Assembly: GCF_000317675.1 (NCBI RefSeq)
Contig: NC_019776.1
Location: 124,001-188,000 of the forward strand
Direction of reading: 5' to 3'
DNA: 64,000 bases
Origin: Cyanobacterium aponinum PCC 10605
Lineage (GTDB): Bacteria > Cyanobacteriota > Cyanobacteriia > Cyanobacteriales > Cyanobacteriaceae
A program made the position numbers and the translations under genes. Below, piece by piece: positions 7,674-37,080 of this stretch. How positions within the stretch are numbered: position 1 is the first letter of the stretch; every line of letters begins with the position of its first letter. Below the pieces are notes generated by a model. That model saw nothing but the letters and a program-made list of their open reading frames with translations. It was not told where the DNA came from and searched no databases.

Positions 7674-9083
7674 CTAATTGGAACTTTGCGGAAAAATAGC
7701 TTTCAACCCTTCCACTCTAGGTAGAGTAAAACCAGCACCAATAATCAGAAAAACTCCTCCTAAAACAACGGCTAAAAGATGATTGTCATGGAGAAAATAG
7801 TTCATAATCCAGCCAAAAAACAGAGAAACCGCAATTTCTGGTAAAACAATAAAAAAGTTAAAGATTCCTTGATAAATGCCTCGTCTTTGAGGGGGAATTG
7901 ATTCGGTTAACATGGCATAGGGCATAACTAAAGCACTGGCCCAAGCGATACCAAAACCAAACATGGAGAATAGTAATATATACTTGTCGTGGATAAATAG
8001 TAAAGCGATAAGACTAATACCACCACAGAATAAGCATAAACAATGAATTGTTTGACGACCTATTTTTTTGGCAAAGTTAGGTAACAAAAAGGAAAAAATA
8101 ACGCATACACCATTAAATAGAGCAAAACAGACTCCAGCCCATTCAATACCATCACTATAAAGCAGTGAACCTTGATTAGTTGCACCGAAAATATTTCTAG
8201 CTACGGCTGGGGGAAAGTAAAGAAAAAAACAGAATATACCTAACCATGTAAAAAATTGAATTTTGGCTAGATAAGTCATAGTAGAAGGCATATTTTGCAA
8301 TGATTGCCAACTTTCTCTTATACTACTCATAATTCCTCCTCTTTGTTCCTGTAGGCGCTCAAATTTTTCTAAGTTTTGAGGAGGATATTCTGGAGTTGTG
8401 ATAACAGTCCAAATTACTGTTCCTAAAAAGAGAATTGCACCAGTATAAAAGGAATATTCAACGGTTAAGGGTATTTGATGAAGAGCATTAGTGGTGTTAT
8501 CTATTTGAAAAAAGTGACTTAAAATCCAAGGCAGGGCAGAAGCTGAAATTGCCCCCATACCCACCATAACACTTTGTATCGCAAATCCCTTTGTACGTTG
8601 GTCTTGAGGCAGTAAATCACCAACAAAGGCTCGAAAAGGAACCATACTAATATTAGCACTACTATCTAATAGCCATAGTAGAATAGCCGCCACCCAAATG
8701 CTGGGAGAATGAGGCATAAATAAAAGTGCGATCGCACCTAAAACCGCTCCTCCTAAAAAATAAGGTCTTCTCCTACCTAAAGGAGTCCATGTATAGTCAC
8801 TTAAGTTACCAATAATTGGTTGAACTAATAAACCCGTTAAAGGTGCGGCAATCCAAAGAATAGGTAACTGATGAGCGTCTGCCCCTAGATACTCAAATAT
8901 AGCACTCATATTTGCCATTTGTAACCCCCAAGCAAATTGAATACCTAAAAAACCTAGATTCATATTCAATATTTGCCGAAAACTAAATTGAGGGCGATGT
9001 TGATTTACTTGTTGATAATTTTCTGATGTTTGCTGATTATCTGATACTTTTTCTGTACTCATAAAAGTTTCATTTTTCAACAT
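7674..9083 (-). CDS. MFS transporter of the GPH/SLC45 (sugar carrier-like) type
   Basis: A 12-helix major facilitator protein (469 residues from the start chosen). The cytoplasmic loop 2-3 signature appears as YTWTPLGRRRPYFLGG, and its mirror in the second half is NFAKKIGRQT. This wording, with early PIIGNLSDYTW, resembles the GPH/SLC45 sugar:cation symporter branch. The real substrate is unknown. The frame is open to 9146, but I choose the ATG at 9083 because an AAGGTG ribosome site lies about 8 bases before it, and the extra upstream codons are repeat sequence. An ATG at 9062 is a second option. The protein sits in the inner membrane. Repeats bound it on both sides: family B downstream and family A upstream. 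Confidence 0.85.
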   Translation of the reverse strand: MLKNETFMSTEKVSDNQQTSENYQQVNQHRPQFSFRQILNMNLGFLGIQFAWGLQMANMSAIFEYLGADAHQLPILWIAAPLTGLLVQPIIGNLSDYTWTPLGRRRPYFLGGAVLGAIALLFMPHSPSIWVAAILLWLLDSSANISMVPFRAFVGDLLPQDQRTKGFAIQSVMVGMGAISASALPWILSHFFQIDNTTNALHQIPLTVEYSFYTGAILFLGTVIWTVITTPEYPPQNLEKFERLQEQRGGIMSSIRESWQSLQNMPSTMTYLAKIQFFTWLGIFCFFLYFPPAVARNIFGATNQGSLLYSDGIEWAGVCFALFNGVCVIFSFLLPNFAKKIGRQTIHCLCLFCGGISLIALLFIHDKYILLFSMFGFGIAWASALVMPYAMLTESIPPQRRGIYQGIFNFFIVLPEIAVSLFFGWIMNYFLHDNHLLAVVLGGVFLIIGAGFTLPRVEGLKAIFPQSSN

Positions 9084-9145: not shown

Positions 9146-9399
9146 TTAACCTCAGTTCGGTTTAAGAATATTGGATAAGGGTAGGTGTCAGGTTTCAGGT
9201 TGCAGGTTGCAGGTGTTGAGATAAAGTAATGAGTAACAAATAATGAGTGTTCGGGGTTTTTAATTCCTAATTCTTAATTTTTCCTTTGCCCTCCCCCCTC
9301 TCGAGGGGGGATAAAGGGGGGTTCGCCTCTTGCCTCTTGCCTTTTGCCTTTTTTTCTCCATCATTCATAGATGAAAATTTATCCCGAACTCAGGTTAAT
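9146..9399 (+). repeat. MITE-like element family A, copy 1
   Basis: A 254-bp element starting TTAACCTCAGTTCGG and ending CCGAACTCAGGTTAA, which are inverted repeats of each other. Conserved end blocks (TTTAAGAATATTGGATAAGG on the left; TCATTCATAGATGAAAATTT on the right) recur in the copies at 17826-18098 and 20638-20838. The interior is a mosaic of 7-bp repeats (AGGTTGC, AGTAATG, TTGCCTC units) plus a C6-TCTCGA-G6-type hairpin at 9294-9310. There is no coding potential. Together with the heptads on both sides it fills the gap between the MFS gene and folP. Confidence 0.8.
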
Positions 9400-11191: not shown

Positions 11192-11690
11192 TTTACTTTC
11201 TATTAGTTATTAATATTATCAATTTCTTTTAATTATCCTATGTCCAAGCCTTATAGAAGTAAATAAGGAGTTCGCTTCACCATCAAAATAACTATTATTT
11301 GTCAATTTATTGACACAATTACCTTAAGGGAAGATAAAACCCTATTGATTTAGACATAAGTTTCAAAGTTTTTATTGTATAGTGTGTATGATGTTTAGGC
11401 AAATTGTCCTATTACGATACTCGGCAAGAGAATATAATTAGTAATTAGTAGTTAAGACAAGGCAAGAGGCAAGAGGCAAAAGGCAAGGGGCAAAAGGCAA
11501 GGGGCAAAGGTAAATAGTGAATAGTGAATAGTGAATAGTGAATAATTAAAAACTCCGTTCACGACTGAAGGGAGTTTACAAGCACAGCGAACTCTCATTT
11601 CCCCCTCTCACCCCTTCCCCTCATCTCCCTCTCTCCTTATCACCTCATCCTCAAATATCTCAATACCTTAACTCCGAACAGAGGTTATTT
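11192..11690. repeat. Gene-free gap with heptad arrays (core 11461-11545)
   Basis: About 500 bases without a credible gene. Positions 11461-11509 are seven consecutive 7-mers of the form GGCAARR, followed by four units of TAGTGAA to about 11545. The remainder is AT-rich DNA, then C/T-rich repeats of the CTCATCTC type (11590-11650). The right end reads CCGAACAGAGGTTA, which looks like a decayed family A terminus. The part next to tpiA (11192-11400) should hold the tpiA promoter; I could not assign -10/-35 boxes with confidence. Confidence 0.7.
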
Positions 11691-16913: not shown

Positions 16914-17402
16914 CTAAGAACCTTTAAGCGATTCTGAAGGGGTAATATTATCGGTATCTATTTCTATTTTATCGGCATACTTATCGGTATTGTTATCGGC
17001 TATTTTTGCCAATGTTCCTTCATTCACCGCTATGGATAGAATATCGGTATTATTATCGGTATAAGTTAACCGATGAATGGCCTCTGATAGCTCATTGAGC
17101 CTAGATTGAATGGGTACTAGCTCCTCCTTAATTAATTGCTTTACCCCTTTCTCAGTTATCGGTATGGTATCAGTATATTTATCGGTATCATACTTTTTTA
17201 TCAGTTCATTTCCATCGAGAAAAGATTGTATCCCTAGCTCTAAAAGATAAATTAAAGTCTGTGTTATTTCTGGTTTTCCACTGATGTGATGAATCCTTGC
17301 AGAAAAACTATTAACCGCTATTTTGGATATTTGCTCATAAACATCAATGGGCAATTTAACATCCAAACGATGAAACTCATTATTAACTCTTTTAGTCGCC
17401 AT
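16914..17402 (-). CDS. Small ribbon-helix-helix-like protein with iteron-encoded repeats
   Basis: A 162-residue acidic protein. Residues 8-65 (RLDVKLPIDVYEQISKIAV..., then EITQTLIYLLELGIQSFL) have the strand-helix-helix pattern of a ribbon-helix-helix DNA-binding domain, with a short insertion containing IHHISGKPE. A helical segment (GVKQLIKEELVPIQSRLNEL) follows. The rest has low-complexity Thr-Asp-Asn/Lys motifs (DTDKYTDT, YTDNNTDI, NNTDKYAD). The underlying DNA is a repeated ATACCGATA motif, the same iteron that stands in front of the gene. The start codon itself lies inside an iteron and there is no Shine-Dalgarno, which suggests autoregulation (inference). The family resembles small cyanobacterial proteins with SDN/TDN repeats; no function is known to me. 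Confidence 0.65.
   Translation of the reverse strand: MATKRVNNEFHRLDVKLPIDVYEQISKIAVNSFSARIHHISGKPEITQTLIYLLELGIQSFLDGNELIKKYDTDKYTDTIPITEKGVKQLIKEELVPIQSRLNELSEAIHRLTYTDNNTDILSIAVNEGTLAKIADNNTDKYADKIEIDTDNITPSESLKGS
16948..17188. repeat. Iterons inside the RHH gene
   Basis: Nine copies of TTATCGGTAT or close variants start at 16948, 16969, 16981, 16993, 17041, 17053, 17156, 17167 and 17179. Neighbours inside each group are 12 bp apart, except 17156 to 17167 (11) and 16948 to 16969 (21). On the coding strand most are read as ACC-GAT (Thr-Asp), but the copy at 17156 is read one base out of phase as ATA-CCG-ATA (Ile-Pro-Ile). Conservation therefore follows the DNA and not the peptide. Confidence 0.8.
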
Positions 17403-17554
17403 ATCGGTATAATAATCGGTATTGTTATCGGTTAGCTACTCCTATCTTATCAGTAAATTGAGTTATGTTGGTACAACAATCGGTTTAAAAATTATTGTTT
17501 ATCGGGATAAGATATATTAATTATTGGTATAACTATCGGTATTGTTATCGGCAT
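17401..17554. repeat. 12-bp iteron array upstream of the RHH gene
   Basis: Two groups of three iterons at strict 12-bp spacing start at 17401, 17413, 17425 and at 17521, 17533, 17545. Two diverged copies lie between them (17477 CAATCGGTTT and 17499 TTATCGGGAT). The consensus is TTATCGGTATTG. The first copy overlaps the ATG of the 16914-17402 gene. This arrangement is what is seen at plasmid partition sites or autoregulated operators bound by RHH proteins (established for ParR and CopG families). Here it is a candidate only. Confidence 0.8.
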
Positions 17555-17825
17555 AAACAAGCAATTATAAAAATATAGGTTTTCACTATTGTTGTTGAAC
17601 TACTCAAATTGAAGAAAGAAGTAATAGACTATGTTTTTACTACGTACGATAAAAACACCCTGTTAACCCTTAAAAGTTAAGGACTTAAGACACGAATAAC
17701 ACCCCATAAATTTAGACATAGCCATGCTACCACTTCCATTAAGAATCGTTACAATTTATCTTTGTTGCAACAATCGTTTGAACATAGTTCTATCAGAACC
17801 ACTGAAGTTTATCTCAATTAACCTC
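17555..17825. other. Gene-free stretch between iterons and element A copy 2
   Basis: About 270 bases of AT-rich DNA. It contains a CCCTTAAAAGTTAAGGACTT-like inverted repeat at about 17667-17687 and no ORF that I can support. It may hold promoters for either neighbour. Nothing else is recognisable. Confidence 0.4.
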
Positions 17826-18098
17826 TAACCTCAGTTCGGTTTAAGAATATTGGATAAGGGTAGGTGTCAGGTTTCAGGTTGCAGGTTACAGGTTGCAGGT
17901 GTTGAGAGAAAGTAATAAGTAACGAGTAATAAGTAATAAATAATGAGTGTTCGGGGTTTTTAATTCCTAATTCTTAATTTTTCCTTTGCCCTCCCCCCTC
18001 TCGAGGGGGGATAAAGGGGGGTTTGCCTCTTGCCTCTTGCCTTTTGCCTTTTTTTCTCCATCATTCATAGATGAAAATTTATCCCGAACTCAGGTTTA
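17826..18098 (+). repeat. MITE-like element family A, copy 2
   Basis: A 273-bp copy with the same terminal inverted repeats (TAACCTCAGTTCGG at the left, CCGAACTCAGGTTTA at the right) and the same end blocks as copy 1. The interior has the same order of heptad modules but different copy numbers: one extra AGGTTAC/AGGTTGC unit and extra AGTAATA units. The internal hairpin of C6-TCTCGA-G6 type is at about 17994-18010. No coding sequence is present. Confidence 0.8.
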
Positions 18099-20637: not shown

Positions 20638-20838
20638 TTAACCTCAATTCGGTTTAAGAATATTGGATAAGGATAGATGTCAGGTTTCAGGTTGCAGGTT
20701 GCAGGTGTTAGGTTTAAGGGAGTAATGAGTAACGAGTAACGAGTAATTATCAACTATTCACCCCAACACTATTTACCTTTGCCCCTTGCCCTTTTTCCAT
20801 CATTCATAGATGAAAATTTATCCCGAACTCAGGTTAAT
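20638..20838 (+). repeat. MITE-like element family A, copy 3 (short)
   Basis: A 201-bp copy. It starts TTAACCTCAATTCGG and ends CCGAACTCAGGTTAA, with the GAATATTGGATAAGG and TCATTCATAGATGAAAATTT blocks conserved. The middle lacks the G/C hairpin seen in copies 1 and 2 and has fewer heptads. The size differences of 201, 254 and 273 bp are therefore due to the internal repeats. Confidence 0.8.
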
Positions 20839-36806: not shown

Positions 36807-37080
36807 TTAAACCTCCGTTTGGTTTATGAATATCGGATAAGGCTAGGTGTCAGGGTGTTTAGAGGATGAGGAGATGAGGAGATGAGGAGAGAGGGAGATG
36901 AGGTGTCAGGTTTCAGGTTTTAGGTTTCAGGTTTTAGAAGAAAGTAATGAATGCTCGGAGTTTTTAATTCTTAATTCTTAATTCTTAATTCTTAATTATC
37001 AACTATTTACCTTTGCCCTCCCTCCTCTCGAGGGGGGATAAAGGGGGGTTTGCCCTTTGCCCATTCCCGAATACGGATAA
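36807..37080 (+). repeat. Degraded family A-like element with heptad interior
   Basis: The left end TTAAACCTCCGTTTGGTTTATGAATATCGGATAAGG matches the family A left end with several changes. The interior carries AGGTGTC, GAGGAGAT, AGGTTTC and TTCTTAA repeats and the CCTCTCGAGG hairpin module at about 37025. The right end CCCGAATACGGATAAG is only a weak match. It fills most of the 387-base gap between ribBA and the ammonium transporter gene. Confidence 0.6.

Follow-up and report, generated by a model that had tools for sequence, protein, structure and literature searches.

In a cyanobacterial chromosome, the gene of a small, probably DNA-binding protein lies within an array of 9-bp sites, which extends over the DNA upstream of the gene, its start codon and its own coding sequence. 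The same layout recurs, with other site sequences, in a family of relatives found mainly on plasmids. Judged from sequence comparisons, we consider it probable that the protein, which is RHH-like, binds the array of its own gene, represses itself in this way and, on plasmids, runs a one-protein maintenance system of the kind known for StbA.

The repeat array at the window locus

In the window, i.e. the whole stretch of 64,000 nucleotides analysed here, the site reads ATACCGATA on the gene strand (TATCGGTAT on the + strand). With a copy defined as a + strand 9-mer with at most two mismatches from TATCGGTAT, at most one of them in the core, 18 copies were counted between 16949 and 17582, all of them on one strand (Table 1). 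A previous reading of the letters alone, here called the sequence-only reading, had claimed about 17 copies around and inside the gene. This array is real, and six upstream copies had been placed correctly, the unit counted there being a 10-mer with an additional T in front. Within the gene there are eight complete copies; one more touches the ATG and nine are found farther upstream, among which the copy at 17574 is weak. Nine had been assigned to the inside of the gene; eight of these belong there, whereas the ninth (17402–17410) covers just the first base of the ATG and is the copy for which an overlap with the start codon had rightly been described. Similarly, a 12-bp spacing had been put forward. 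The distances of 11–12 bp are indeed the commonest (eight times), but 21–22 bp occurs as well (four times), together with a few longer ones.

Such a density is not expected by chance. When at most one mismatch was allowed and both strands were searched, 14 copies were found in the 647 bp from 16914 to 17560, compared to an average of 0.53 and never more than 3 in 500 dinucleotide shuffles, and the next-richest among the 647-bp stretches sampled in the window had 2. Exact pairs of the type ACCGAT-N6-ACCGAT exist three times in the entire 4.18-Mb genome, all at this locus. The lack of a Shine-Dalgarno sequence 5–12 nt before the ATG was confirmed; an AGGAG is located ~45 nt upstream of the ATG, with no suitably placed start codon after it.

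Many heptanucleotide tandem repeats (CAGGTTG, TTTGCCT and AAGTAAT types) occur elsewhere in the window. They resemble the short repetitive sequences known from cyanobacterial intergenic DNA.

Table 1. Coordinates of the features in the window and of selected genes in relatives
Feature	Position	Strand	Remark
Gene (with stop codon) of the 162-aa RHH-like protein	16914–17402	−	sister species has an 84% identical ortholog
Conserved N-terminal DNA-binding-type domain, residues 9–63	17214–17378	−	family alignments; hhalign to Arc/CopG
Variable tail, residues 70–162	16917–17195	−	DTDN/TDN-type repeats are translated sites
Intragenic array, 8 copies of ATACCGATA	16949–17188	−	enriched over codon-order shuffles, p=0.001
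Intragenic copies, + strand starts	16949, 16970, 16982, 17042, 17054, 17157, 17168, 17180		
Upstream array, 10 copies including start-codon copy	17402–17582	−	spacings 12, 12, 22, 30, 22, 22, 12, 12, 28
Start-codon copy and upstream copies, + strand starts	17402, 17414, 17426, 17448, 17478, 17500, 17522, 17534, 17546, 17574		
Site ending at start codon, ATACCGAT/ATG	17402–17410	−	same position occupied in many distant homologues
Exact intragenic off-frame copy	17157–17165	−	encodes IPIT, others DTD or similar; identical in sister species
Remnant, C-terminal part of tyrosine recombinase	17654–17818	+	55 codons, one internal stop, divergent from gene
Heptanucleotide tandem repeats	17868–18052, 9189–9349, 11459–11544, 20680–20746, 36865–36997		
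Slippery-heptamer gene, L044	1010–1453	−	
Slippery-heptamer gene, L020	1330–1665	−	
Slippery-heptamer gene, L004	3971–4321	+	
Slippery-heptamer gene, L038	541–1020	+	
Second-subfamily loci, Nostocales and Oscillatoria plasmids	L085 769–1677; L083 1234–1809; L091–L094		GTGTAGAC/A ending at ATG

The encoded protein

The conserved N-terminal domain consists of an RLDVKLP ribbon, helix A, an HHISGKPEIT loop and helix B. Across the family the pattern R-x-D-x-R/K-x-P, followed by HHxSGKPE and then the second helix, is kept, and the remainder is variable, including the tail, whose sequence is not conserved. A profile of this domain aligned by hhalign to Arc (score 23.0) and CopG (20.7), with ribbon and first helix in register, and none of 150 shuffles reached the score of either (maxima 14.7 and 13.7). 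The succession of a ribbon and helix A with alternating contact residues, as in RHH proteins, is present in the form of R-x-D-x-R/K. Because of the alignment in register and the shuffles that never reach these scores, the window protein is likely to be of RHH type.

The RHH assignment, already made in the sequence-only reading, is supported by this register, whereas no family cut-off was reached and the structure model is poor. Among the curated RHH models of Pfam and NCBIfam none matched the window protein; for relatives, matches below the cut-off were obtained with CopG_antitoxin (E=0.0027), RHH_5 (E=0.09) and a PHROG Arc-like repressor (E about 0.03). The model of the N-terminal domain, built from a three-sequence alignment with a mean pLDDT of 58, has helices at residues 19–33 and 48–63; its best PDB match in Foldseek, the ArtA-DNA complex, is not significant (E=8). 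Prediction of the full protein, also from a three-sequence alignment, gave a pLDDT of 37, and sequence searches of the PDB returned no relative. A downstream ORF that might be a toxin-antitoxin partner is not found family-wide, and downstream of the window gene there is none on the same strand.

Conservation in a sister species and chromosomal setting

An ortholog exists in another genome of the same genus (G014), where it is likewise chromosomal and lies in a gene order shared with the window. The second contig of that genome matches pDongsha4a in position and sequence, and by this match G014 is Cyanobacterium sp. Dongsha4 or very close to it. The two genes are under moderate constraint (dN 0.078, dS 0.142; for the N-terminal 70 residues 0.037 vs 0.096). 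All upstream and intragenic sites are kept in the sister species, a few of them with one or two changes. Differences between the two genomes amount to 4.7% within the sites versus 9.7% outside (p=0.04), a contrast owed largely to the upstream DNA; within the coding part, sites and spacers do not differ significantly (p=0.52). A 9-bp indel in the coding sequence turns a 21-bp spacing into one of 12 bp, and these are the two preferred spacings.

Only few members of the family are chromosomal: the window gene, its ortholog in the sister species and a weaker member in G010 that has no intragenic array. The suggestion of a DNA-binding system on a chromosome needs modification, as most members are carried by plasmids, and the window copy is itself probably plasmid-derived. 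Divergent from the gene lies the remnant of a tyrosine recombinase (Table 1), which has a relative on the Geminocystis plasmid pGM3709_01 (E=1e-4) and sits in a stretch that has no counterpart at the locus of the sister species. It is a possible trace of a plasmid or integrase origin.

A cyanobacterial, mainly plasmid-borne family

The family, read here from about 30 relatives, is cyanobacterial, previously undescribed and mainly plasmid-borne. A tblastn search of plasmid records found relatives on plasmids of Cyanobacterium, Stanieria, Planktothrix, Microcystis and Geminocystis, and with a profile of the N-terminal domain members were detected in 31 out of 391 genomes of the order; viral and phage collections yielded no relative. 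Many members are located on contigs of 9–20 kb; the ends of one of these (13,463 bp) overlap by 55 bp, as for an assembled circle.

Replication genes of the CyRepA1, DUF3987, DUF3854/DUF927 or DnaB-PolA type are found in the neighbourhood. Of the loci with sufficient flanking sequence, about half encode a serine or tyrosine recombinase no more than a few kilobases away, and at L002, L037 and L041 the divergent neighbour that shares the array is a serine recombinase. A partner gene common to the whole family was considered and rejected, as neighbours are shared by subsets only. In three Microcystis loci (L009, L010 and L030) the gene is directly followed by a small one, whose product is a coiled-coil protein ending in a hydrophobic helix, and a similar small gene is present at L048; this protein could be a membrane tether. 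Two other loci share another small protein.

In four relatives (L044, L020, L004 and L038) a slippery heptamer, AAAAAAG or GGGAAAG, precedes the stop codon by 7–22 nt. Behind it the −1 frame is open for 88–236 codons, coding for a linker or coil and a C-terminal HTH-like domain; a comparable domain is fused in frame in other members. From this arrangement, programmed −1 frameshifting appears likely in these four.

Arrays and motifs across the relatives

For each locus the best motif was learned solely from the 250 bp preceding the start codon, and its occurrences in the coding DNA were counted afterwards. At 13 separate loci the upstream-derived motif was enriched in the coding DNA over codon-order shuffles (p 0.0005 to 0.046, combined p about 1e-23). 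In seven of these (L002, L035, L038, L040, L041, L044 and L048) it also exceeded synonymous shuffles, in which protein and codon set are kept (combined p for all 13 about 3e-10). Both combined values are rough, since the loci were picked after the motif test had been seen and independence is assumed. For the window gene alone the synonymous test gave no excess (p=0.62), so that the case for a constraint at the DNA level is made there by the off-frame copy, the copies upstream and the relatives. That the coding DNA itself belongs to the array, as the sequence-only reading had it, is thus backed by relatives with other motifs and by the codon-level tests. A plain 8-mer motif search with no background correction picked AT-rich words in AT-rich loci and was superseded.

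The site itself is variable. Mostly it has the form TATC-N-GATA, but ATAC-C-GATA is found in the window, ATAC-G-GATA in C. aponinum and TAAC-T-GATA in Geminocystis, and the arrays of different members are built from ATACCGATA, ATACGGATA, TATCNGATA or GTGTAGAC. The motif changes between lineages yet stays with the gene. Position and spacing were compared with the universal pattern TAYCNGRTA, which misses other motif forms (window: 1+1) and was used for this purpose only. In 14 out of 34 loci a site ends exactly at the start codon (CNGAT/ATG). Upstream, the spacings of the relatives peak at 10–12 and 19–21 bp; in coding DNA there are peaks at 12, 21 and 24 bp, and 15 and 18 bp are nearly absent though frame-compatible. 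On an 11.2-kb contig (L063) a second cluster of seven TATCNGATA sites lies at 8500–9000, away from the gene.

Looking for the motif beside homologues, as the sequence-only reading had proposed, gave a mixed result: most relatives have sites, but by per-locus motif test and pattern scan arrays are absent in L042, L043 and L049 and largely so in L036. Members of the Stanieria type have two or three sites, upstream only.

When the C-terminal domain of L035 was used as query, plasmid proteins were retrieved whose RHH-like N-terminus is of another kind. On several Nostoc and Tolypothrix plasmids GTGTAGAC or GTGTAGAA stands immediately before the ATG. The Oscillatoria plasmid pOSCIL6304.02 has an upstream array with 8 copies of the motif of this second subfamily (0.4 expected) and an intragenic array supported by both codon-order (p below 0.002) and synonymous shuffles (p=0.012). 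As the motif GTGTAGAC of the second subfamily is unrelated, the layout is not bound to one motif or to one N-terminal subfamily. On the plasmid unnamed1 of Nostoc UHCC 0870 (L088, upstream of 1309), ATTGCGAC occurs 8 times versus 0.26 expected, and these repeats stop short of the gene, the true start of which may lie farther upstream than annotated. The locus adjoins CyRepA1, an integrase and a type III-B CRISPR gene.

Possible function of the arrays

According to the reading favoured here, the protein would act as an RHH dimer of the Arc/CopG type on the 9-bp site, which is roughly two-fold (4-N-4). Since the spacing corresponds to about one or two turns of DNA, many dimers could align over promoter, start codon and coding DNA, and they would form one nucleoprotein filament over some 0.6 kb, the gene included. 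As the protein accumulates, the site at the ATG and those preceding it would become covered and the gene would be repressed; the conserved site abutting the ATG argues for such autorepression. On plasmids, gene and array would constitute a cis-acting locus for segregation, clustering or copy control, often beside a recombinase gene. The tail would tolerate changes of its sequence and would be shaped by the need to encode sites, and the window copy would be a chromosomal member still keeping its sites. Within this reading autoregulation is the safer part, and partition is plausible. A ParA is encoded within about 1 kb of the gene, not in an operon with it, on two array-bearing contigs (L060 and L064), for which reason a one-protein system may not apply to all members. 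We put forward only tentatively, and with some doubt, a bolder form, in which the ORF itself would be the centromere-like element of a one-protein, one-locus maintenance system, its tail dictated by the needs of DNA binding, and in which this arrangement would have arisen repeatedly with unrelated motifs.

Plain autoregulation, with the array as one long operator whose intragenic sites add repression or a roadblock and with no role in maintenance, appears rather unlikely to be the whole explanation. Autoregulation is typical of the RHH superfamily (CopG, for example, represses its own gene), sites upstream and at the ATG occur in many lineages, the two-site ones included, and represent the minimal and most widespread state, and the window copy, being chromosomal, has no plasmid function left to fulfil. 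Yet up to a dozen or more sites over coding DNA seem beyond the needs of repression, and the sites are not clustered at other promoters of the plasmids concerned, with one exception. Strong intragenic arrays are, moreover, mostly found on small plasmid-like contigs, a tie that is suggestive and on which we place no weight, since the lengths of draft contigs confound it. An unlikely candidate is partition of type Ib, in which the protein would bind the centromere in partnership with a ParA whose gene lies elsewhere in the cell. The partners in that type are small RHH proteins which bind and repress via repeats upstream of the operon (PMC5016525), as would suit the family and the two contigs with a nearby ParA. 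Against this, ParA is not annotated on the complete plasmids pAL20118b, pAL20118a, Microcystis p1, pDongsha4a and pGM04, the gene tables of which are incomplete, and in the neighbour tables of 30 loci the small gene was never in an operon with parA.

Could the repeats instead be the iterons of a replication origin bound by a plasmid Rep, with the small protein as a regulator or mere neighbour? We regard this as very unlikely. Iteron origins are common and CyRepA1, DUF3987 or DnaB-PolA genes are near the gene on several plasmids; however, the small gene goes with the same type of site even where the plasmids have unrelated Reps, most sites on nine plasmids or plasmid-sized contigs fall on this gene and its promoter with no clustering at the rep genes, and the array is retained on both chromosomes, where no Rep gene adjoins it. 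Still less probable is selection on the peptide repeats of the tail (DTDN, LSDK, LTDN, LPDN) that would leave the intragenic DNA repeats as a by-product. The shared frame of most intragenic copies would fit, as would the result of the synonymous test for the window gene, but the same motif fills untranslated DNA, copies exist off frame (at 17157 in the window, and in all three frames in L002), codon choice in seven relatives favours the site beyond the protein sequence, and L085 of the second subfamily has the layout with a different motif, its VD repeats coming from GTAGAC. Finally, repeats born by slippage, or selfish ones, with no function at all are scarcely credible here. Duplication could give regularly spaced short repeats; but the spacers differ between copies, the copies of the relatives face both ways and both species have kept the sites. 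An origin by slippage or as a short tandem repeat was rejected, the arrays reported by Tandem Repeats Finder being only short and weak.

A literature search, in which few subscription journals were covered, found no earlier description of intragenic arrays or of maintenance systems of cyanobacterial plasmids like these. The site arrays of maintenance proteins are normally non-coding, and here, across many diverged lineages, the array passes through the gene coding for the presumed binder. If the binding is true, this would be a compact, self-contained locus for cyanobacterial plasmids which have no recognisable partition system, with a bearing on the persistence of small plasmids in polyploid cyanobacteria and on vector design. 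It would also be a clean case of selection at the DNA level that shapes a protein sequence.

Comparison with known systems

A binding site within the gene of its own binding protein is known from Bacillus subtilis, where parB (spo0J) contains ParB's own parS site. That site is single and palindromic, there is no array that shapes the peptide, and the protein is unrelated. With Arc and CopG the family shares ribbon and helix A in register, but it differs from them by the long conserved loop between the helices (HHISGKPEIT) and the long tail; Arc and CopG bind one or a few operators.

By analogy, the nearest RHH precedent is type Ib partition, which requires ParA. ParG of TP228 and omega of pSM19035 are small RHH proteins that bind upstream arrays of direct and inverted short repeats, repress their gene and form a segrosome (PMC5016525). 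The small RHH-like protein and the short repeats upstream of its own gene resemble them, whereas their centromeres are located upstream or at several promoters and not within their own gene, and they need the ParA ATPase. KfrA of RA3 combines a DNA-binding domain with an alpha-helical coil, has a repetitive operator and plays a role in stable plasmid maintenance (PMC7783346). The family is likened to it by description, and the partners of KfrA (KfrC and segrosome proteins) are different.

In its way of working, the putative system comes close to StbA of R388, one DNA-binding protein that suffices for plasmid stability (PMC3098194), which is consistent with the missing ParA annotation on the five complete plasmids, as far as their incomplete gene tables tell. 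Homology is not claimed. The stbA gene is in an operon with an ATPase, and the protein here looks RHH-like. Around its own promoter StbA recognises 9-bp direct repeats with 2-bp gaps and hence an 11-bp period, in two groups of five (PMC3098194). The sites in the window are likewise 9 bp long and arranged with a period of about 12 bp around the gene's own promoter, but where the described repeats are placed around the stbABC promoter and not within the gene, the array here runs on through the coding DNA.
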